Source: an uncultured Eubacteriaceae bacterium (GTDB lineage Bacteria; Bacillota; Clostridia; Lachnospirales; CAG-274). Taken from it: DNA of 64,000 bases. Where the stretch lies: the NCBI GenBank assembly GCA_947086655.1, contig CAMTZM010000006.1, positions 41,552 to 105,551 on the forward strand, read 5' to 3'. A program made the translations under genes and the position numbers. The notes under the pieces were generated by a model. It was not told the DNA's origin. It saw only the letters and a program-made list of their open reading frames with translations, and did no database searches. Positions within the stretch are counted from its first letter, which is position 1; every line of letters starts with the position of its first letter. Below, in pieces: positions 2,967 to 50,702 of this stretch.

Positions 2967-3018
2967 TAATTAAACTTATTTTTAAAATGAAATATGTATA
3001 AAGTAATATTATTTTAAC

Positions 3019-3165
3019 CGATAAAAGAAGTCCCCCGCCAATTAAGCGGGGCATTTACTCTTGTATTCAGTGGGAGGAAAATTTACTACAAAGGCGAATA
3101 CTTTCGCCGTTGGTTATGAGTATTTTTGCAAAGCAAAAATGCGAATAGTCTTTGACAATAAATCC
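3019..3165 (+). repeat. Dispersed intergenic repeat, copy A
   Basis: Non-coding segment between dnaK and dnaJ. It starts CCGATAAAAGAAGTC, contains a CCCCGC/GCGGGG hairpin, then TTTACTCTTGTATTCAG, a GGCGAA/TTCGCC hairpin and the module GGTTATGAGTATTTTTGC followed by AAAGCAAAAATGCGAATAGTC. The same modules in the same order recur, inverted, at 18412-18558, and in part at 14540-14640, 50636-50697 and 53085-53165. It has strong folding potential but no open frame that looks real. Confidence 0.7.
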
Positions 3166-13641: not shown

Positions 13642-14400
13642 TTATAAATTCATTTTTATGTAATCTACAACAGAAGCTATAAATTCACTGTTAGTAGGGC
13701 GTTTTCCATTGTTATGGTCTGTAAAGCCCATTATTTTATAATATGATATACCCGAGTCTTTTTCCCACGCTACTTCAATAGAATGTCTTATAGAACGCTC
13801 GACTCTTGAGTTACTTGTGTTATTAATTCTTGCTATTTCTGGGTATAAAAATTTTGTTACGCCCTCTAATATGCTGTCATTTTCAAGGCACATAATAACA
13901 GCTTGTTTTAAATATTTAAAACCTTTTAAATTAGGCATTATTCCGGTTTCGTTTAAAATCCAAGCTATATTTTTCTCAGCTTTTACTAATTCATTATTGT
14001 TGAGAGTGTGAAAAATTCCTATATATTTTTTATCGTTTACAATTTCTTTTATTCTTCTTATTATTATATTAAAATCGCATGGTTTAAGTAATACATATTT
14101 TGCACCCAATTCAAACGCTTTTGATATAATATGCGGAGAGTTTACAGCCGTTAAAACTATACATTTGAGTCCGTCTTCAATCATACCAATATGATTTAAT
14201 TCTTCTAAAACTCCAATGCCGTCTATTCCTGAAAGTATAATGTCAATTATAACAGCAGATGGTTTTGTTTTTTTTACAAGCTTAATACCGTCAATTCCAT
14301 TATGCGCTATTCCAGAAACATTAATTTCCGAATCATTATTAAGAATTTCAGCCATTTTATTACAGATTTCCTTATCATCGTCAATAATTACAACATCCAT
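13642..14400 (-). CDS. spo0A: Sporulation master regulator Spo0A
   Basis: Response regulator that starts endospore formation when phosphorylated. The N-terminal receiver domain has the acidic pair in VVIIDDDKE and phospho-acceptor Asp in VIIDIILSGIDGIGVL (near residue 56) and Lys in LLKPCDF (near 106). The C-terminal Spo0A DNA-binding domain is clear: TKFLYPEIAR, the recognition helix SRVERSIRHSIEVAWE, and GKRPTNSEFIA. 252 residues is normal. The usual clostridial neighbour spoIVB is not adjacent. It shows that the host can sporulate, which matters for the split cwlD nearby. Confidence 0.97.
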   Translation of the reverse strand: MDVVIIDDDKEICNKMAEILNNDSEINVSGIAHNGIDGIKLVKKTKPSAVIIDIILSGIDGIGVLEELNHIGMIEDGLKCIVLTAVNSPHIISKAFELGAKYVLLKPCDFNIIIRRIKEIVNDKKYIGIFHTLNNNELVKAEKNIAWILNETGIMPNLKGFKYLKQAVIMCLENDSILEGVTKFLYPEIARINNTSNSRVERSIRHSIEVAWEKDSGISYYKIMGFTDHNNGKRPTNSEFIASVVDYIKMNL

Positions 14401-14766: not shown

Positions 14767-16170
14767 ATGCAGAATACATATATTGTAAGGACAAAGGATA
14801 AGAAACTTTTATGTTTTCATTATAATAACGATTCAATTTATTGCAGGCAATATTCAGATGGAAAGTGGAGCAAGGATACATCTGTAATAGAAAATGTAAG
14901 AGACAGCTATACAGTTAATTTAACAGATGACGGGCAAATTTATATTTTTGCTCAAGATAAGAATGGAAATATTATATTATGTACGAAAGATAATGGGTTT
15001 TGGAAAGAACAAATAATTTTAAAAAGTTCTGAAAAGAATGTAAAAAATATAATGTTTTTTTCTATTTCCGGAAATCAAGGAATGAAACTTTTATATAATA
15101 TTCCTCAAAATGACAAATTAAGTCATTGTCTTGCTATGCAGCTTGCGGATAAAAACGGAAAGTGGGGCGGTTCTCAGATTATAGATAATATTGTAAGTTT
15201 GCCGGAAAGTATTTTTCAGCTTCAAAGCATAAATAAAGGGCATTGTATTGTTTTTTGCCAAAAAAGAAACAAAGAAAATATAATAGGTTACAGAGAATTG
15301 ACATTATCAAGAAAAGGAGATTTTAATGCTGTTTTTTCAACAAATTTTAATATTACTGACCATTGTTTTTTAGCCGGTGAAAATGGAATTTATTTTGTTG
15401 TAGCTGTAAAGAGTATGTTTTCCACTCAGCTTATATTTAGGAAAACAACCGATAAAGGATTAAGTGAACCTTATGTATTATGGGAAGGACAAAAGACAGG
15501 AGGATGTCAAATTCTATTTGTAAAAGGCGTTTTATATATTTTCTTTCTTCACTTAGGAAGGTTATATTATTGCATATCAAACGATTTTGGGGATAGTTTT
15601 TCAAAACCAGAACGATATAAAGAACATTTTTGCAGTATTTATAAGAAGGCTTATTTTATTTCGTATGATAAAATGAGTGAAAAGGAGTTTTTAGCACGTG
15701 AATTTTATGTTGAAAGCAAGAATGTTTCAAATATACAGATTATATCTGATTTATATGATTCATTTTATAATGAGAGTGTTAATAAGATGTCGGTTGTAGT
15801 TGAAAAAGAAGACTCTCAAGAAATTATTAAACTCAATAACAGAATTTCTGAGTTAAATTCAAAACTTGATGAAAAAAACAGACAGATAATTCAACTTACA
15901 GATTTATTAAATAAAAAAAATGAGGAAATTGTGTGGACAGAGAATAATTGGAAAAATAAATTAAAAAATGCTGTAAATGTAAATGAAAAAGAGAAACAGA
16001 CAAATGATATTAAACAAAAGAATATAGAGATTGAAAAAAAAGAAATAGAAAAGAGAACAAAAGATAAAACAAAAGATAATATTGAAAAAGACAAACCGTC
16101 ATATAAAAAAGTAGATATAGATAATGTGGAAAAATCAGAGGAAGGTGCTGATTATGAAGATATTAAGTGA
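14767..16170 (+). CDS. Unknown protein: beta-propeller-like repeats plus charged coiled coil
   Basis: No family recognised with confidence. Residues 1-330 contain recurring short units such as DGKWSKDTSVIEN, NGFWKEQIILKSS and NGKWGGSQIIDNI, spaced like blades of a sialidase-type propeller. Residues 340-467 are a Lys/Glu-rich coiled coil. No signal peptide or membrane segment is evident. The start ATG follows AGGGTGAT. Its 3' end overlaps the cwlD start (16154) by 17 bp, so the two genes are translationally coupled and probably expressed together during sporulation. A structural spore-coat or cortex role is only inference from this overlap. Confidence 0.6.
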   Translation: MQNTYIVRTKDKKLLCFHYNNDSIYCRQYSDGKWSKDTSVIENVRDSYTVNLTDDGQIYIFAQDKNGNIILCTKDNGFWKEQIILKSSEKNVKNIMFFSISGNQGMKLLYNIPQNDKLSHCLAMQLADKNGKWGGSQIIDNIVSLPESIFQLQSINKGHCIVFCQKRNKENIIGYRELTLSRKGDFNAVFSTNFNITDHCFLAGENGIYFVVAVKSMFSTQLIFRKTTDKGLSEPYVLWEGQKTGGCQILFVKGVLYIFFLHLGRLYYCISNDFGDSFSKPERYKEHFCSIYKKAYFISYDKMSEKEFLAREFYVESKNVSNIQIISDLYDSFYNESVNKMSVVVEKEDSQEIIKLNNRISELNSKLDEKNRQIIQLTDLLNKKNEEIVWTENNWKNKLKNAVNVNEKEKQTNDIKQKNIEIEKKEIEKRTKDKTKDNIEKDKPSYKKVDIDNVEKSEEGADYEDIK

Positions 16171-16357
16171 CTTTTGGAAAAATAATAAAAATAAAATATT
16201 AGTAGGTCTTTATTTATCTGTATTAGCTTTTGGAGTAGTCGGAAGTTACTACAAAGAAAGTCTTGAAACTTTTTCAATGCCTGTATCTAAGAAAAATATT
16301 GTTATAGATGCAGGCCATGGTAATACATTAATGCGGCGAGGTGATTATTTTGTATAA
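16154..16357 (+). CDS. cwlD: CwlD germination-specific amidase, N-terminal fragment (interrupted gene)
   Basis: Encodes a membrane anchor (about residues 14-32, ILVGLYLSVLAFGVVGSYY) and the first part of the Amidase_3 domain, KKNIVIDAGHG. After the His codon at 16316 the sequence stops resembling an amidase (NTLMRRGDYFV and stop). The missing continuation, GGWDPGKV and onward, is found in frame at 20807-21364. Start: ATG after GAGGAAGGTG, overlapping the upstream gene. CwlD, with PdaA, makes muramic-delta-lactam in spore cortex, the signal for cortex-lytic enzymes at germination. As it stands the gene cannot make active enzyme; an earlier in-frame ATG (16124) is less likely the start. Confidence 0.9.
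   Translation: MKILSDFWKNNKNKILVGLYLSVLAFGVVGSYYKESLETFSMPVSKKNIVIDAGHGNTLMRRGDYFV
16311..16334 (+). other. attL: left recombination site
   Basis: cwlD sequence up to the CAT histidine codon, then GGT and the element's right attP arm AATACATTAATGC (16322-16334). The crossover dinucleotide is inferred as CA at 16316-16317, because it is the centre of the dyad in the joined circle. GGT (16319-16321) is also shared by both sites and cannot be excluded; the restored protein is the same either way. Confidence 0.8.
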
Positions 16358-17804
16358 TACAGGGATTTATATAAGAATATCACAAGAAGATAAAATTAAA
16401 AATGAAAATGAAAGCGCAAGTATAATAAATCAAAGAAATTATCTTTTGGAATTTATAAATAGACAATCGGATTTGAAATTTATAAAAGAATATACAGACG
16501 ATGGTTATACAGGAACAAATTTTGAAAGACCAGGATTTAATAGTATGCTTGAGGATATAGATAAAGGAAAAATAAATTGTATTGTTGTAAAGGATTTATC
16601 AAGGCTTGGCAGAGAATATATAAATTCAGGTATGTATATTGAAAAAATATTTCCGGAAAAGGGAGTTAGATTTATAGCTGTAAATGATAATTTTGATACT
16701 AATAATAATATAAATGATTTTATAATTCCTATTAAAAATGTTTTTAATGAGTTATATTCAAAAGATATATCAAAAAAATGTTCAAGCATTTTAAGGGAAA
16801 AAAAGAAAAACGGAGAGTTTATAGGGGCATTTGCATGTTATGGATATAAAAAGTCTGTTTCAGATAAACATAAACTTGTTATAGACCCTCATGCCGGCAT
16901 AATTGTTCAAAGGATATTTAAAATGTATCTTGACGGAATGGGAGCAAAAAAAATAGCTGAAGTATTAAATAGTGAACATGAACTTCCTCCAATGCTTTAT
17001 AAAAATGAAAACGGATTAAAATATAATAATGGCAGAAAGATTTTTAAAACTCTGTTTTGGAGTAGTTCAACAGTTTTATACATACTTAAAAATGAAATAT
17101 ATGCCGGAAATATGGTTCAAAATAAAAGTTATAGGGAAAATATAAAAACAAAAAGAAAAAAACTTTCAAAAAAAGATTGGATTATTGTCAAAAATACTCA
17201 TGAGCCTCTTATTGATTATGATAAATGGGCTATGGTTCAAGAACTTTTGAAAAAAAGAAATACAAAAACAGTGTATGGAAACAGTTCACATATACTTTCA
17301 GGTTTAATTGTATGCGGTCATTGTAAAATGGCAATGTGCCGATGTGAGAGAAAAAGCGGTGCATATTTTATGTGCGGAACATACAAACGCTTAGGAAAAC
17401 AATATTGTATTAGAAATAAAATAAGTGCTGAAAAGGTAATGATAGAAGTTAATAATTATTTAAAAAATCATGGAGCGTTTAAAAATAAAAATTATTATAG
17501 TGTTTCTAAAAAAATACTTTCTAATATTGAAATGGGATTTAATAATAAATTGTATAATATAAAAGAACTAAAGAAAAGGCTTCTTGAGTGTTTTTTAAAA
17601 GGTATTATATCGGAAAATGAAATGAAAATTTATATGTGTGAATATGAGAAAATGCAAGAAAATATAAAAAAAAGTCTTTCAAATTTTTATAAAGAAAAAA
17701 AAGAAAATAATAATGAGAATATTATTACAAGAGAAAAAGTAGGAGAATTTATAAATAAAATAAGTGTGTTAAATAGTAATGATATATTTATAGTTGGCAA
17801 ATGA
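16350..17804 (+). CDS. Large serine recombinase of the cwlD element
   Basis: Site-specific recombinase of the resolvase/large-serine type, expected to cut and rejoin DNA at the two att sites. The N-terminal catalytic domain shows YIRISQED with the nucleophile Ser (near residue 9), DGYTGTNFERPGF, and the Arg cluster in KDLSRLGREYI (near 85). It is followed by the Recombinase domain (YGYKKSVS to about 290), a zinc-ribbon (CGHCKMAMC, then CGTYKRLGKQYC) and a coiled-coil tail. The start is taken at TTG 16350 with AGGTGA 5 nt upstream, rather than GTG 16341, which sits inside that ribosome site. The gene begins 34 bp from the crossover and has the orientation of cwlD, so the cwlD promoter would transcribe it only before excision. 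Confidence 0.95.
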   Translation: MYNTGIYIRISQEDKIKNENESASIINQRNYLLEFINRQSDLKFIKEYTDDGYTGTNFERPGFNSMLEDIDKGKINCIVVKDLSRLGREYINSGMYIEKIFPEKGVRFIAVNDNFDTNNNINDFIIPIKNVFNELYSKDISKKCSSILREKKKNGEFIGAFACYGYKKSVSDKHKLVIDPHAGIIVQRIFKMYLDGMGAKKIAEVLNSEHELPPMLYKNENGLKYNNGRKIFKTLFWSSSTVLYILKNEIYAGNMVQNKSYRENIKTKRKKLSKKDWIIVKNTHEPLIDYDKWAMVQELLKKRNTKTVYGNSSHILSGLIVCGHCKMAMCRCERKSGAYFMCGTYKRLGKQYCIRNKISAEKVMIEVNNYLKNHGAFKNKNYYSVSKKILSNIEMGFNNKLYNIKELKKRLLECFLKGIISENEMKIYMCEYEKMQENIKKSLSNFYKEKKENNNENIITREKVGEFINKISVLNSNDIFIVGK

Positions 17805-17981
17805 TAATTTGTATAAAAGAGGAAATAAAATTATTTTATAGATAAAATTATTGTTACAAAGAGAAAATTGAAGAAAAATAGATTATATTGAAAAAAAATA
17901 AGGGAAAATGAGCATATTTGTAATTTTTATTAGATAATGTTATGTGATATAATTTAAGAAAAAATTTTGGAGGTATTTATT

Positions 17982-18182
17982 GTGCAAAAAGATAAAGTAA
18001 CAGCATTGCTTTTAGCTATTTTTTTAGGTTCATTAGGTATTGACAGATTTTACTTAGGTTATACAGGAATGGGAATTTTAAAACTTTTAACATGTGGTGT
18101 ATGTGGTATAATGACAATAGTAGATATAGTTCTTATTATTATGGATAAACTTCCAGCGGCTGACGGAACTCCTTTAAAGTAA
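17982..18182 (+). CDS. TM2 domain membrane protein
   Basis: A 66-residue protein with two membrane helices and the TM2 signature: ALLLAIFLGSLGIDRFYLGY, then GILKLLTCGVCGIMTIVDIV. Start GTG follows GGAGG with good spacing; a TTG five codons earlier overlaps the ribosome site. TATAAT at 17948-17953 is a probable -10 box. TM2 proteins are widespread and mostly of unknown function. It lies inside the intervening element after the recombinase and is followed by its own terminator. It has no features of a recombination directionality factor, but that role cannot be excluded from sequence. Confidence 0.85.
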   Translation: MQKDKVTALLLAIFLGSLGIDRFYLGYTGMGILKLLTCGVCGIMTIVDIVLIIMDKLPAADGTPLK

Positions 18183-18220
18183 ATTATTTAGACGGCTTTA
18201 ATGGTTTTTAATGTTTAAAG

Positions 18221-18257
18221 ATGTTGTAAAATATGGCATACGCTATATTTTACAGCA
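18221..18257 (+). terminator. Terminator after the TM2 gene
   Basis: TGTAAAATAT / ATATTTTACA stem, extended by ATG/CAT, followed by a run of seven T. It separates the recombinase-TM2 part of the element from cheRB. Confidence 0.8.
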
Positions 18258-18787
18258 TTTTTTTGTTTGTTTTTTATTTGACAAATTAGGAATATAAAAG
18301 TATAATTTTTATAGTAGCAATTAATAATCTTATAAAGCATTTTTTAAAAAAAAGTCACATAATAATTTAAGTAATTAAAAAAGTATTTTTTTATGCCTAA
18401 TTTATAGTCAAGACTATGAGAATTTTTGTGTAACAAAAATTTTAAGCCGACGAGCTAAAACATTTGCCTTTATATTCAGTGAGAGATTAAAATCCTGCTG
18501 AATATAAGAGTAAGTACCCCCTTAAAATAGCGGTGGACTTCCTCTGTCGGTTAAATAACATTTAGTATAAATTAGTGTTTCATCGTAAATACAGTCAAAA
18601 AAATAAACATACGCAAAAAATTTTTATAAAAATATTTTTGGCAATACCGCTTGGTTTTATAAAAATTGGTTATTTAGCATAGCTGCATTTTATATTAATG
18701 AGTTTTTGTATTAAGATGTAAATTTTAGTAAAAACCATGAATTGTCAATTATGCGATATTGCCTTTTTTGAAGGTGAGTTGATATAT
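18258..18787. other. Gene-free stretch inside the element
   Basis: About 530 bp without a convincing gene. It holds repeat copy C (18412-18558) and a perfect 13-bp inverted repeat, AATTTTTATAAAA at 18619-18631 and its complement at 18655-18667, with a 23-nt loop ending about 120 bp before cheR. The latter could be a regulatory hairpin or operator for cheRB. No strong promoter stands out. Confidence 0.5.
18412..18558 (-). repeat. Dispersed intergenic repeat, copy C (inverted, inside the element)
   Basis: On the minus strand it reads CCGACAGAGGAAGTCCACCG, then TTTTAAGGGGGTACTTACTC, TTATATTCAG, and the module GTCGGCTTAAAATTTTTG, matching copy A at 3019-3165 module by module. Its own hairpin TATATTCAG/CTGAATATA is evident. 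Being inside the intervening element it shows that the repeat family and the element share history in this genome. Confidence 0.65.
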
Positions 18788-19603
18788 ATGGAAATAACGG
18801 ATAAGGAATATAAAAGTATTGTTGATTATGTTAAATCAAATTATGGTATAAACTTAAATGGAAAAAAGACGCTTATTACGGGAAGACTTCAAAATTATCT
18901 TGTAAAAAACGGGTATTCAAGTTACAGTGAGTTTCTTGACAAAGTTAAAAGCAGTAAAACAGGTGAAGAAGCAAATAAGATGCTTAATTACCTTACTACT
19001 AATCATACATATTTTTTAAGAGAACAGCTTCACTTTAATTATTTAAGAGATGTAGTTCTTCCATTTCTGCTAAAAAAGGAAAGTGCAACCAAAAGTATCA
19101 AGTTATGGTCATGTGCTTGTTCGACTGGTGAAGAACCTTATACTATCGTTATGACAATGGAAGATTTTTTTAAGTCACAACCGGGAAAGTGGGATACAAG
19201 AATATTAGCTACGGACATATCTACACAAGTTTTGGGAAAAGCGAGAGAGGGGATTTATTTAAACGAACAGCTTGAAGTTCTTCCGGATAGATGGCGAAAG
19301 ATGTATTTTCAAAGACATTCAGATGTGGAAAGCCGAGTAAAAGATGAAATAAGAAATAAAGTTATATATAAACAATTTAATCTTATGAGTGCAAATTATA
19401 GTTTCAAATCAAAATTTAATGTTATATTTATTAGAAATGTTATGATTTATTTTGACGAGCAGACAAAAAGACAAATAGTTGATAAAATGTATAATTGTCT
19501 TGATATTGGGGGATATCTGTTTACAGGTATGGCTGAAGTGGTTGATAAGACCGCTACAAAGCTTAAATATATTCAGCCATCTATTTACCAAAAAATAAAT
19601 TAG
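18788..19603 (+). CDS. cheR: Chemotaxis protein methyltransferase CheR
   Basis: Methylates glutamates of chemoreceptors using S-adenosylmethionine. N-terminal CheR domain (about 1-75), then the SAM-binding motif LWSCACSTGEEPYTIVM (near 105), ILATDIS (near 140) and IFIRNVMIYFD (near 215). 271 residues is typical. The ATG at 18788 is preferred, with GAAGGTGAG upstream; an ATG 51 bp earlier adds an unconserved Cys-containing leader. cheB follows 17 bp later. It is cargo of the element splitting cwlD, an unusual place for an adaptation enzyme. Confidence 0.95.
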   Translation: MEITDKEYKSIVDYVKSNYGINLNGKKTLITGRLQNYLVKNGYSSYSEFLDKVKSSKTGEEANKMLNYLTTNHTYFLREQLHFNYLRDVVLPFLLKKESATKSIKLWSCACSTGEEPYTIVMTMEDFFKSQPGKWDTRILATDISTQVLGKAREGIYLNEQLEVLPDRWRKMYFQRHSDVESRVKDEIRNKVIYKQFNLMSANYSFKSKFNVIFIRNVMIYFDEQTKRQIVDKMYNCLDIGGYLFTGMAEVVDKTATKLKYIQPSIYQKIN

Positions 19604-19620
19604 TTATTGGTGTGGTGATT

Positions 19621-20706
19621 ATGAAAAAAATTAAAGTTCTTGTTGTTGATGATTCACTTTTATTTCGAGAATTTCTTGTGAGGGTTATTAACTCAATTCC
19701 TCAATTAATGGTTGTCGCAGCCTGTGAAGATGTATTTCAAGCAAGAGATGCTATACTTAAATTTCATCCTGATGTTGTTACATGTGATGTTAGTATGCCA
19801 AGAATGGATGGAATTGAATTTGTAAGACAACTTTTGCCGCAATATAAAATACCTGTCATTATGGTTAGCAGTCTTACAGGAAAAGTATTTGACGCATTAG
19901 AGGCCGGAGCTGTTGATTTTGTTAATAAACCAGCTATGCTAAATGATAAGGAAATTGAAAAGTTTGTAAAAAATGAACTTGCGAGTAAGATAATTGTTGC
20001 TGCGTCAGTTAAATTTGATAAAAATAATAAAAGCAGTATGCCTGTTAATAGCAGAGCGGTAAGACCAGTTAATAATACCGCACCGAAAAGCGGCGCTTTT
20101 TCGGTATTAAACAGAATTAGTTCAGGCAAAAACGTAAGCGACAGAATAGTAGCCATAGGTGCGTCTACCGGCGGAACAGAAGCTATTTTAAAGGTTGTAA
20201 AAGGATTTAATCCAGATATACCAGGTGTTGTTATAGTGCAGCATATGCCTGTTGGTTTTACAAGTTTATATGCAGAAAGACTGGATAGGTGCTGCAATGT
20301 ACGTGTAAAAGAGGCTAAAAGCGGAGACAGGGTTGAAAAAGGACTTGTACTTATAGCTCCCGGAGATGTTCAAATGAAACTTTCAAAAGATAGTAATGGG
20401 TATTTTGTTGTATGCGGAGGAACAACGAAAGTATCAGGGCATTGTCCTTCAGTTGATTTTTTGTTTAAATCTGTTGCTGAGACTGCTAAAGACAAAGCCA
20501 TAGGCGTTATACTTACGGGAATGGGAGCAGACGGCGCTGCCGGACTTCTTCAAATGAGAAGCAACGGAGCATTGACGATAGGACAAAATCAGCAAAGCTG
20601 TGTTGTATATGGTATGCCTAAAGTAGCATATGATATTGGAGCAGTTAAATATCAATTAGATATAAATGAGATATCAACAAAAGTTTATGCTCTTCTTAAT
20701 TTATGA
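19621..20706 (+). CDS. cheB: Chemotaxis response regulator methylesterase CheB
   Basis: Removes receptor methyl groups (and deamidates glutamines) when phosphorylated by CheA. Receiver domain: VVDDSLLFREFL, phospho-acceptor Asp in VVTCDVSMPRMDG (near residue 55), Lys in FVNKPA (near 100). Linker about 125-175. Catalytic domain with Ser-His-Asp triad: AIGASTGGTEA (Ser), IVQHMP (His) and GMGADGA (Asp). 361 residues, normal. Start ATG follows GGTGTGGTGATT. Paired with cheR inside the element. A hairpin (20737-20779) separates it from the cwlD 3' part. Confidence 0.96.
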   Translation: MKKIKVLVVDDSLLFREFLVRVINSIPQLMVVAACEDVFQARDAILKFHPDVVTCDVSMPRMDGIEFVRQLLPQYKIPVIMVSSLTGKVFDALEAGAVDFVNKPAMLNDKEIEKFVKNELASKIIVAASVKFDKNNKSSMPVNSRAVRPVNNTAPKSGAFSVLNRISSGKNVSDRIVAIGASTGGTEAILKVVKGFNPDIPGVVIVQHMPVGFTSLYAERLDRCCNVRVKEAKSGDRVEKGLVLIAPGDVQMKLSKDSNGYFVVCGGTTKVSGHCPSVDFLFKSVAETAKDKAIGVILTGMGADGAAGLLQMRSNGALTIGQNQQSCVVYGMPKVAYDIGAVKYQLDINEISTKVYALLNL

Positions 20707-20736
20707 TAAATACTAAATTATTAAAAAATTGTTTTT

Positions 20737-20779
20737 AAGTATGCGCTATATAAACTTAAAAGTTTTTTAGCGTATACTT
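20737..20779 (+). terminator. Hairpin after cheB, before attR
   Basis: AAGTATGCGCTA pairs with TAGCGTATACTT (one bulge). There is no good T-run after it, so termination is uncertain, but the place would keep cheRB transcription out of the cwlD fragment. Confidence 0.5.
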
Positions 20780-20789
20780 ATTATATGGC

Positions 20790-20815
20790 GCATTAAAGTA
20801 TTTCCCCACGGTGGC
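20790..20815 (+). other. attR: right recombination site
   Basis: Element arm GCATTAAAGTATT (20790-20802), core TCCCCACGGT (20803-20812), then cwlD sequence GGCTGGGACCCTGG. The central CA is at 20807-20808. The arm is the inverted complement, with one mismatch, of the arm at attL. Confidence 0.8.
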
Positions 20816-21364
20816 TGGGACCCTGGAAAGGTACGCAGTGACGGAATAGAGGAAAAAGGAATTAATCTTGCTGTCTCAAAGAAACTTCAAATATATCTTG
20901 AGCAAGCAGGGGCTTTTGTAACATTGACAAGAGATGATGATAGCGCTTTGTCATCGGAAAAAAGAGCCGATTTAAAAGAAAGAAAAAATATAATAAATGA
21001 TGAAAATACAGATATAGTAGTAAGTATTCATCAAAATTCATTTCCAAAAGAAAGTGTAAAAGGGGCACAGGTTTTTTATTATAAAAAATCGGAGCAGAGT
21101 AAAAGGCTTGCGGAATGTATACAAACAAGACTTAAAGAGTTTGCCGATAAATCTAATACAAGGATTCCAAAGGCTAATCTTGATTATTATATTTTAAAAA
21201 ATACACAGAAACCGGCAGTAATTGTGGAATGTGGTTTTTTATCTAATAATGAGGAAAACAAGAAACTTAACAGTGAAGAATATCAGGAAAAAATAGCATG
21301 GGCAATTTATATGGGTATTACTGATTTTTGCAAAAGTCTTGAAATTGAACAGGCTAATGCTTAA
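20807..21364 (+). CDS. cwlD: CwlD germination-specific amidase, C-terminal fragment (interrupted gene)
   Basis: Has no start codon of its own; it is the in-frame continuation of 16154-16315. It encodes HGGWDPGKVRSDGIEEKGIN and onward, with the zinc-ligand Glu in IEEKGINL, SIHQNSF (second His) and the catalytic Glu in ECGFLSN, all hallmarks of Amidase_3. With the first 54 codons it makes a full 239-residue enzyme. An internal ATG at 20924 would lack the HGG and Glu ligands and is not a plausible start. No frameshift or stop disrupts this half, which argues that the reading frame is still under selection and thus restored at some stage. Confidence 0.9.
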   Translation, partial: HGGWDPGKVRSDGIEEKGINLAVSKKLQIYLEQAGAFVTLTRDDDSALSSEKRADLKERKNIINDENTDIVVSIHQNSFPKESVKGAQVFYYKKSEQSKRLAECIQTRLKEFADKSNTRIPKANLDYYILKNTQKPAVIVECGFLSNNEENKKLNSEEYQEKIAWAIYMGITDFCKSLEIEQANA

Positions 21365-50336: not shown

Positions 50337-50630
50337 ATGAAAAATGATTACGTTATAAGTGAAATCAGGGATTCTTTAAGGAAAATTCAATGTCGTAATA
50401 AATCAAAAACTATAATATTTATTATTATGGGTATGATAGTTGTTGTACTTGCGGCAGCTTTAATTATTATGAAAGTCAAAGGCAAGTTAACTAAAGATAA
50501 ATTTGAAGATGACGATTTTGAAGACGATGAATTAGATGATTTAGAAGATTCCGATGATGATGAGATAAGAGAAGATTATTATGCGCTTGATTATGAAGAA
50601 AATGAAACAGATGAAGATGATGGAGAGTAA
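50337..50630 (+). CDS. Small single-pass membrane protein with acidic tail
   Basis: 97 residues: basic N-terminal part (RDSLRKIQCRNKSKT), one membrane helix (IIFIIMGMIVVVLAAALIIM, about 27-46) and a tail made almost wholly of Asp and Glu (about 55-97). A GGAGATG ribosome site precedes it. No family recognised. The shape suggests an anchor for a basic partner at the inner membrane face, but that is inference. Confidence 0.65.
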   Translation: MKNDYVISEIRDSLRKIQCRNKSKTIIFIIMGMIVVVLAAALIIMKVKGKLTKDKFEDDDFEDDELDDLEDSDDDEIREDYYALDYEENETDEDDGE

Positions 50631-50635
50631 TTTAA

Positions 50636-50697
50636 TCGACGGAGGAAGTCACTCACTGTTTTAAGAGGGGAGTGCTTACTCTTATAGTAAGGGGGAT
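50636..50697 (+). repeat. Dispersed intergenic repeat, partial copy E
   Basis: CGACGGAGGAAGTC..TTTTAAGAGGGGAGTGCTTACT..CTTATAGTAAG matches the first module of copy C. Its end abuts the GGGGGA ribosome site of the next gene, so the repeat forms that gene's 5' leader. Confidence 0.55.
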
Positions 50698-50702
50698 TTT
50701 TT

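Follow-up and report, generated by a model that had tools for sequence, protein, structure and literature searches.

The DNA analyzed here, called the window in what follows, is a stretch of 64,000 nucleotides from an uncultured Eubacteriaceae bacterium (assembly GCA_947086655.1, contig CAMTZM010000006.1, positions 41,552 to 105,551; its genome is referred to as G000). CwlD makes cortex muramic-delta-lactam, the mark recognized by cortex-lytic enzymes at germination. In the window, cwlD is interrupted at the histidine codon of its DAGHGG motif by a 4,491-bp element carrying a large serine recombinase gene, both halves being open and free of frameshifts. An earlier note on this DNA had described two open halves, 4.49 kb apart, that join to a protein of 239 amino acids (aa), and its coordinates and frame were confirmed. 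The halves, the recombinase gene and the predicted attachment sites are placed as follows:

16154..16317, forward strand: cwlD 5' half, a reading frame ending with CA, the first two bases of the DAGHGG histidine codon
20807..21364, forward strand: cwlD 3' half, from the histidine codon to the stop; TIGR02883 201.6 bits, PF01520 169.7 bits for 20810-21361
16350..17804, forward strand: large serine recombinase, 484 aa; Resolvase (PF00239), Recombinase (PF07508) and zinc-ribbon (PF13408) domains, all over cut-off
16316..16317, forward strand: attL overlap dinucleotide CA, predicted crossover within the shared CCA, at the attP palindrome centre
20807..20808, forward strand: attR overlap dinucleotide CA, predicted crossover within the shared CCA, at the attP palindrome centre
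16321..16336, forward strand: left-end arm of the predicted attP palindrome, 13 of 16 positions pairing with 20788-20803
20788..20803, forward strand: right-end arm of the predicted attP palindrome, pairing with 16321-16336

The three bases CCA are common to both junctions (16315-16317 and 20806-20808, a spacing of 4,491 bp), and any crossover within them leads to the same 239-aa joined CwlD, with the frame restored exactly. The predicted joined chromosomal junction reads GCAGGCCACGGTGGCTGG. Besides, at the predicted circle junction TCCCC^ATGGT lies in the middle of an inverted repeat, whose centre falls between C16316 and A16317 and in which 13 of the 16 arm positions from 4 to 19 match. It ranks first among the even centres within 1 kb of joined circle sequence, and its score was equalled by 2 of 20,000 shuffles and at 9 of 63,940 window positions. 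Crossovers shifted by one base to either side score 3 and 5, versus 13 out of 16, and attB, attL and attR lack this symmetry, with 6, 5 and 5 of 25 positions matching. Because the palindrome is centred on CA, this dinucleotide is likely the overlap, and the restored histidine codon should be CAC. When the joined protein was aligned with C. difficile CwlD (7rag), DAGHGG fell in register, its histidine corresponding to His49, which is described as required for zinc binding (PMC8496864). The broken codon is therefore that of a probable zinc-binding active-site residue, as had been claimed when the break was placed at the zinc-ligand histidine.

An alignment and a tree were built from the joined CwlD and the 30 best-scoring relative loci, one being the 3' half of another split gene (genome G029). 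The joined protein nests among the CwlD proteins of its relatives and groups with four sister-genus rows (support 99/94). It keeps all 42 columns that are invariant in the 30 relatives, in agreement with the earlier statement that every catalytic feature is retained, as well as 72 of the 72 columns that are at least 90% conserved. Its end branch measures 0.17; for the four unsplit sisters, the corresponding values are 0.24 plus 0.07-0.15. The cwlD halves of the window show no decay. This state of the gene has to be set against an explanation in which an ordinary integrative element used the conserved active-site sequence of cwlD as attB, cwlD being simply inactivated and excision rare and unregulated. 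Indeed, conserved gene sequences serve large serine recombinases as specific integration sites, and the window species is known from one genome plus near-identical database proteins. However, the conserved residues are all kept and evolution is no faster, and we regard such an inactivating integrant as unlikely.

The recombinase gene had also been noticed at the left junction, and its assignment holds: the reading frame is uninterrupted, and the protein carries three Pfam domains and matches the TnpX catalytic-domain structure 2mhc (E 2.3e-30). Its start was corrected, most likely to TTG 16350, which is 33 bp inside the left junction and follows a Shine-Dalgarno-like GAGGTGA from 16338. The truncated cwlD frame, whose stop is at 16355-16357, extends 8 bp into the recombinase frame. 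Given this proximity and overlap, transcription from the cwlD side would reach the recombinase. A second intact cwlD, named beforehand in the earlier note as contrary evidence, was looked for by a profile search of G000 (a 96-contig assembly) and not found. This genome's three further Amidase_3 matches were rejected as CwlD, with 110-138 bits on the CwlD model versus 206 for the 3' half; such scores resemble those of paralogues in relatives with unsplit cwlD. The attP-like palindrome on the shared dinucleotide, the undecayed halves and the outcome of this search, together with the breaks in seven other species, the selection on 3' halves and the rejoined allele described below, make the reconstitution of cwlD by precise site-specific excision a well supported prediction.

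An assembly chimera is extremely improbable as the origin of the split. G000 is in 96 contigs, and of the two junctions a further database protein covers only the right one; yet that protein, P0001, reads across it and differs at a single upstream position (a variant, or a TAG codon translated as Gln), and a near-identical recombinase, P0121, differs by a single Ile-to-Met change. The palindrome lying on the junction and the same kind of break in other species, in genome G157 on a contig of 338,300 bases, are likewise against a chimera.

The element holds four recognized genes, encoding the recombinase, a TM2 protein, CheR and CheB, all oriented like cwlD. The features that follow the recombinase gene are:

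17967..18182, forward strand: TM2-domain membrane protein; PF05154 79.5 bits
18408..18558, forward strand: structured intergenic repeat upstream of cheR; blastn copies elsewhere; fold z -4.7 (18430-18570)
18788..19603 (longer frame from 18737), forward strand: CheR methyltransferase; PF01739 192.7 bits, PF03705
19621..20706, forward strand: CheB methylesterase with receiver domain; NF001965 382 bits, cut-off 293

No phage structural or conjugation genes were recognized among the element's genes in profile scans, and its GC content is 0.286 versus 0.298 for the window. This host-like composition and gene content argue against an inactivating integrant. The proteins closest to the element CheB come from the sister genus (56-58% identity; G018, G026 and G032), a protein of another family (G042) reaching 55%; for CheR, the identities are 52-62% to the same three genomes and 44% to G042. 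In G018 and G032, the cheR-cheB pair stands alone, outside cwlD, by AsnC-like and aminotransferase-like genes (named from sequence), and a che cluster on a different contig of G000 includes another CheR and CheB. The kind of cargo found here and in the genus g49, described below, hence resembles resident host genes and not phage genes. Close relatives of the element itself were not found: recombinase scans gave one match each among genome contigs (26%) and viral contigs (43%), in scans that may leave out the window's own or very near records, a plasmid DNA search returned 3 records at 71-72% identity over 3-5% of the query, and a phage search 432 records, every one under 60%. As a separate observation, the intergenic repeat of about 150 nucleotides at 18408-18558, for which there was no Rfam match at gathering score, has a fold that 1 of 200 shuffles of 18430-18570 equalled. 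Its relatives lie in the window at 3005-3163 and 50627-50700, both on the reverse strand, and at loci L004, L066 and L018, and copies elsewhere in the window's genome and in G004 are 69-84% identical.

Including the window's, eight species of four lineages have cwlD broken near the same codons; the other seven belong to three further lineages. In the survey of the window's family, the gene is split in 2 of the 38 genomes having it (the window's and G029), and in the survey of the order in 5 of 109 (the window's, G090, G118, G157 and G148); survey rows were sorted by profile-match start and frame length, and only odd rows were opened. G146 was discarded as a split case, its break being a contig end, and so were G027 (a 188-aa frame) and G033 (one stop), which both match the full-length CwlD model. 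In G029 (locus L035, contig C14), three tandem recombinases precede the cwlD 3' half; the upstream gene is on another contig and continues up to its end. In G148 (L073, C57), a 542-aa recombinase adjoins the 3' half, with conjugation-type genes further up, as judged from open reading frame (ORF) translations only. In both genomes, as in G118 and G190, the contig holds only the 3' side of the break. The breaks of G148 and G029 look like sites of larger mobile elements. A single clade of cwlD-associated recombinases (7 of 22 recombinases) was rejected by the approximately unbiased test (p-AU 0.0058), the group having been defined by location after the unconstrained tree was seen and the third recombinase of G029 being long-branched; that these recombinases do not form one clade argues for repeated targeting. 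The recombinases of the window and G148 may be sisters (support 79/88, not significant).

Then, the split was followed in genus g49, where cwlD is interrupted in five of six species. Both halves lie on one contig in G157, G090 and G188 (L070, L071 and L081), about 11.5 kb apart: the spacing is 11,562 in G157 (11,560 at the core), 11,500 in G090 (11,491 at the core) and 11,466 in G188. Database protein P0242, from Lachnospiraceae bacterium NSJ-143, is identical to the 3' half of G157, and G157 appears to be NSJ-143, an apparent isolate carrying the 11.5-kb form. The cargo of the three genomes has the same order, namely a PstS-type protein, an HAD phosphatase, PstC, PstA, PstB, PhoU, a PhoB-type regulator, a PhoR/PnpS-type kinase, an Na/Pi symporter and the recombinase, as compared by ORF translation with families assigned on the G090 copies, several of them under the curated cut-off. 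The recombinase gene thus stands at the right end of the element, next to the cwlD 3' half. G189, the sixth species, carries an uninterrupted cwlD of 234 aa and represents a natural empty site: the gene is flanked, as are the halves in G157 and G090, by genes that from their sequence resemble an enoyl-CoA hydratase and a DEAD-box helicase. Joining at TGGG restores DAGHGGWDPGK, with an exact frame in G157 and G090, and the predicted joined junction of G157 reads CACGGGGGCTGGGACCCGGG; relative to the window, this crossover is shifted downstream by 9 bp (three codons). An attP palindrome on the shared TG scores 15/16 in G090 and 13/16 in G188 (0 of 20,000 shuffles each), and 10/16 in G157 (50 of 20,000).

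The recombinases adjoining the 3' half in G090, G118 and G188 are 64-79% identical, so that the insertion is most simply ancestral in this genus. Among the cwlD 3' halves of these genomes, nonsynonymous divergence (dN) is 0.038-0.059 and synonymous divergence (dS) 1.0-1.6, giving an omega of 0.033-0.038. The pN/pS ratio is 0.067-0.085 for the 3' halves versus 0.21-0.33 for the recombinases, and the 5' half (47 codons, mostly membrane segment) gives 0.21 between G090 and G188; all of these are rough values from our own Nei-Gojobori script, comparisons with G157 being synonymously saturated. The 3' half alone is without the histidine of DAGH. Judged from these ratios, the g49 3' halves are under strong purifying selection, and a dead fragment would not be so constrained. 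Relatives with a decaying split gene, also named in advance as contrary evidence, were looked for and not found. Conjugation-type genes (G148) and three tandem recombinases (G029) beside the cwlD break favor an inactivating integrant, whereas the split in most g49 species and the low omega of their 3' halves oppose it.

Among the best 120 proteins matching the joined CwlD of G157, 19 are split-type fragments and one, P0274, is a rejoined allele. It lies on a 4,895-bp contig of a metagenomic assembly and contains NNRIVVIDAGHGGWDPGKTGKSGMNEKDIN; 120 of 120 residues agree with the split-type proteins P0261, P0262, P0265 and P0269. Hence, the predicted kind of junction exists in nature. Such an allele in a metagenomic assembly would also fit an element that, at every stage of growth, leaves and re-enters the chromosome in a fraction of the cells, as phase variation or bet-hedging without sporulation control. 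This is in line with the description of C. botulinum yin as excised at all time points (PMC10747680), and no sporulation promoter was found in our scans. The count of 19 split-type fragments versus one rejoined allele among these matches speaks against it, and cwlD is without known use in growth, so selection points to spores, as the pathway would imply. Excision of this kind is considered quite unlikely. As a side observation, 23 of the listed proteins lack D[AP]GH: 19 are the g49-type fragments, P0326, P0333 and P0338 have DVGH, and the remaining one, P0320, is a cwlD fragment of another lineage, its N-terminus being replaced up to a point immediately ahead of WDPGK; it is probably split and stands outside the eight-species count.

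From these results, it seems likely that the serine-recombinase element splitting cwlD excises itself during sporulation and precisely rejoins the gene in the mother cell, which differentiates terminally. We infer the timing and the mother-cell restriction from the class of the element and from its target gene. The C. difficile cwlD is reported to belong to the mother-cell sigma-E regulon (PMC3789822), that is, to the compartment where excision would spare the germ line. The window's host probably carries a sporulation programme, judging by gene content: the sigK (242-aa frame) and spoIVA (517-aa frame) of G000 are open and over their cut-offs, and spo0A lies close to cwlD. Among 48 genomes of the family, spoIVA was found in 42 (E <= 1e-30) and cwlD in 38 (E <= 1e-45). 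Upstream of the 5' half lie:

13642..14400, reverse strand: spo0A, second gene upstream; TIGR02875 226.5 bits, cut-off 200
14767..16170, forward strand: 467-aa gene without recognized family, sharing 17 bp with the start of cwlD; G005 has a relative upstream of its unsplit cwlD

Several points weigh against sporulation-controlled restoration of cwlD. Scans for sigma E/F/G/K promoters, made with consensus motifs, were near chance overall and recognized no sporulation promoter; the exceptions are two sigma-F-like sites in front of the 467-aa gene, where 0.38 would be expected, and a small number of sigma-E-like sites preceding unsplit cwlD in the sister genus. No directionality factor was recognized among the element's small ORFs. 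Thus, of the earlier proposal that excision in sporulation restores cwlD, restoration by excision is well supported, whereas its sporulation timing drew no support from the scans or from a recognized factor. G000 is without a PdaA over cut-off (best 145 bits), a cut-off reached in 4 of 12 tested genomes and missed by G005, G010, G014 and G018, all with unsplit cwlD. On TIGR02883 (spore_cwlD), the joined protein reaches 220.4 bits, 1.15 below the curated cut-off of 221.55, which is exceeded in only 13 of the 48 genomes of the family; despite this score, the split gene is cwlD as judged by the tree and the model. No joined copy of the window species' CwlD was present among the best 120 of 6,672 matches in 5.8 billion proteins, where the best unsplit relative is 72% identical. 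The evidence of selection comes from another genus, with another recombinase in a right-end position. Finally, P0274 is out of frame after IIKNT, by a sequencing error or a real lesion, and could come from an element-free strain rather than from sporulation excision.

Under the proposed mechanism, transcription through the cwlD 5' half would also produce the recombinase, which would recombine attL with attR at the CA of the histidine codon. This would leave GCAGGCCACGGTGGCTGG on the chromosome and release a 4,491-bp circle that would perish along with the mother cell. In the forespore, the element would remain in place, preserving cheR, cheB and the TM2 gene for the germ line, while the rebuilt CwlD would take part in the synthesis of cortex muramic-delta-lactam. 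The genus of isolate NSJ-143 would follow an equivalent scheme, in which the recombinases and the cargo differ. More tentatively, and with less than even confidence, the active-site codons of cwlD may be a convergently used developmental recombination site, where recombinases of more than one lineage were domesticated and whose elements carry resident vegetative functions (chemotaxis adaptation in the window, the pst operon in the NSJ-143 genus). If so, one mother-cell excision would switch a cortex gene on and delete vegetative functions from that cell.

The proposed system resembles several described rearrangements. The gin element in gerE of Bacillus cereus ATCC10987 is likewise described as a non-phage element inside a sporulation coding region, with a serine recombinase, a short shared core in an inverted repeat and precise in-frame restoration (PMC5595907). 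In contrast, gin spans 28.6 kb, has three recombinases and a 42-aa directionality factor, and its excision is demonstrated, whereas the window element spans 4.5 kb, has one recombinase and no recognized factor, interrupts another gene, cwlD, and its excision is predicted from sequence. As proposed here, skin in sigK of Bacillus subtilis and C. difficile is reported as a recombinase-driven rebuilding of a mother-cell sporulation gene; however, its target is a sigma factor gene and not a cortex enzyme, it is prophage-derived, and its excision in C. difficile needs CD1234 (PMC5025042). The directionality factor of C. difficile skin is given as 53 aa, and in both B. subtilis skin and C. botulinum yin the recombinase is placed directly behind the 5' half and codirectional with it, as in the window (PMC10747680). 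The yin element in yabG also shares the single recombinase and a late-sporulation enzyme as target, but is described as prophage-like, with another target and excision in part of the culture at all times (PMC10747680). Sporulation excision of SP-beta from spsM in B. subtilis is reported to rebuild a spore-envelope gene, as proposed here, although SP-beta is an active prophage and the window element is small and without phage structural genes (PMC4191935).

The earlier note knew of no described cwlD intervening element, and our full-text literature search, run without bioRxiv and most subscription journals, found no paper on one. The rearrangements in the papers found rebuild regulators (sigK, gerE), a protease gene (yabG) and a surface-polysaccharide gene (spsM). 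Were a cortex enzyme rebuilt as well, muramic-delta-lactam would become linked to a DNA rearrangement. With several families concerned, split and unsplit species in one genus and purifying selection, why spore genes attract elements becomes a comparative, testable question. Besides, automatic annotation would score such genomes as carrying a short amidase instead of cwlD.

A further split gene was observed in the sister genus, where sigK was found only as two pieces in three of four genomes (G010, G018 and G032), in G010 and G032 by partial matches. In G018, the pieces (L067, C3:22769-31003) are about 7.5 kb apart and a 732-aa recombinase lies between them. The insert looks like a compact skin-like element without evident phage genes, and it also holds collagen-like and glycosyltransferase-like genes (named from sequence).

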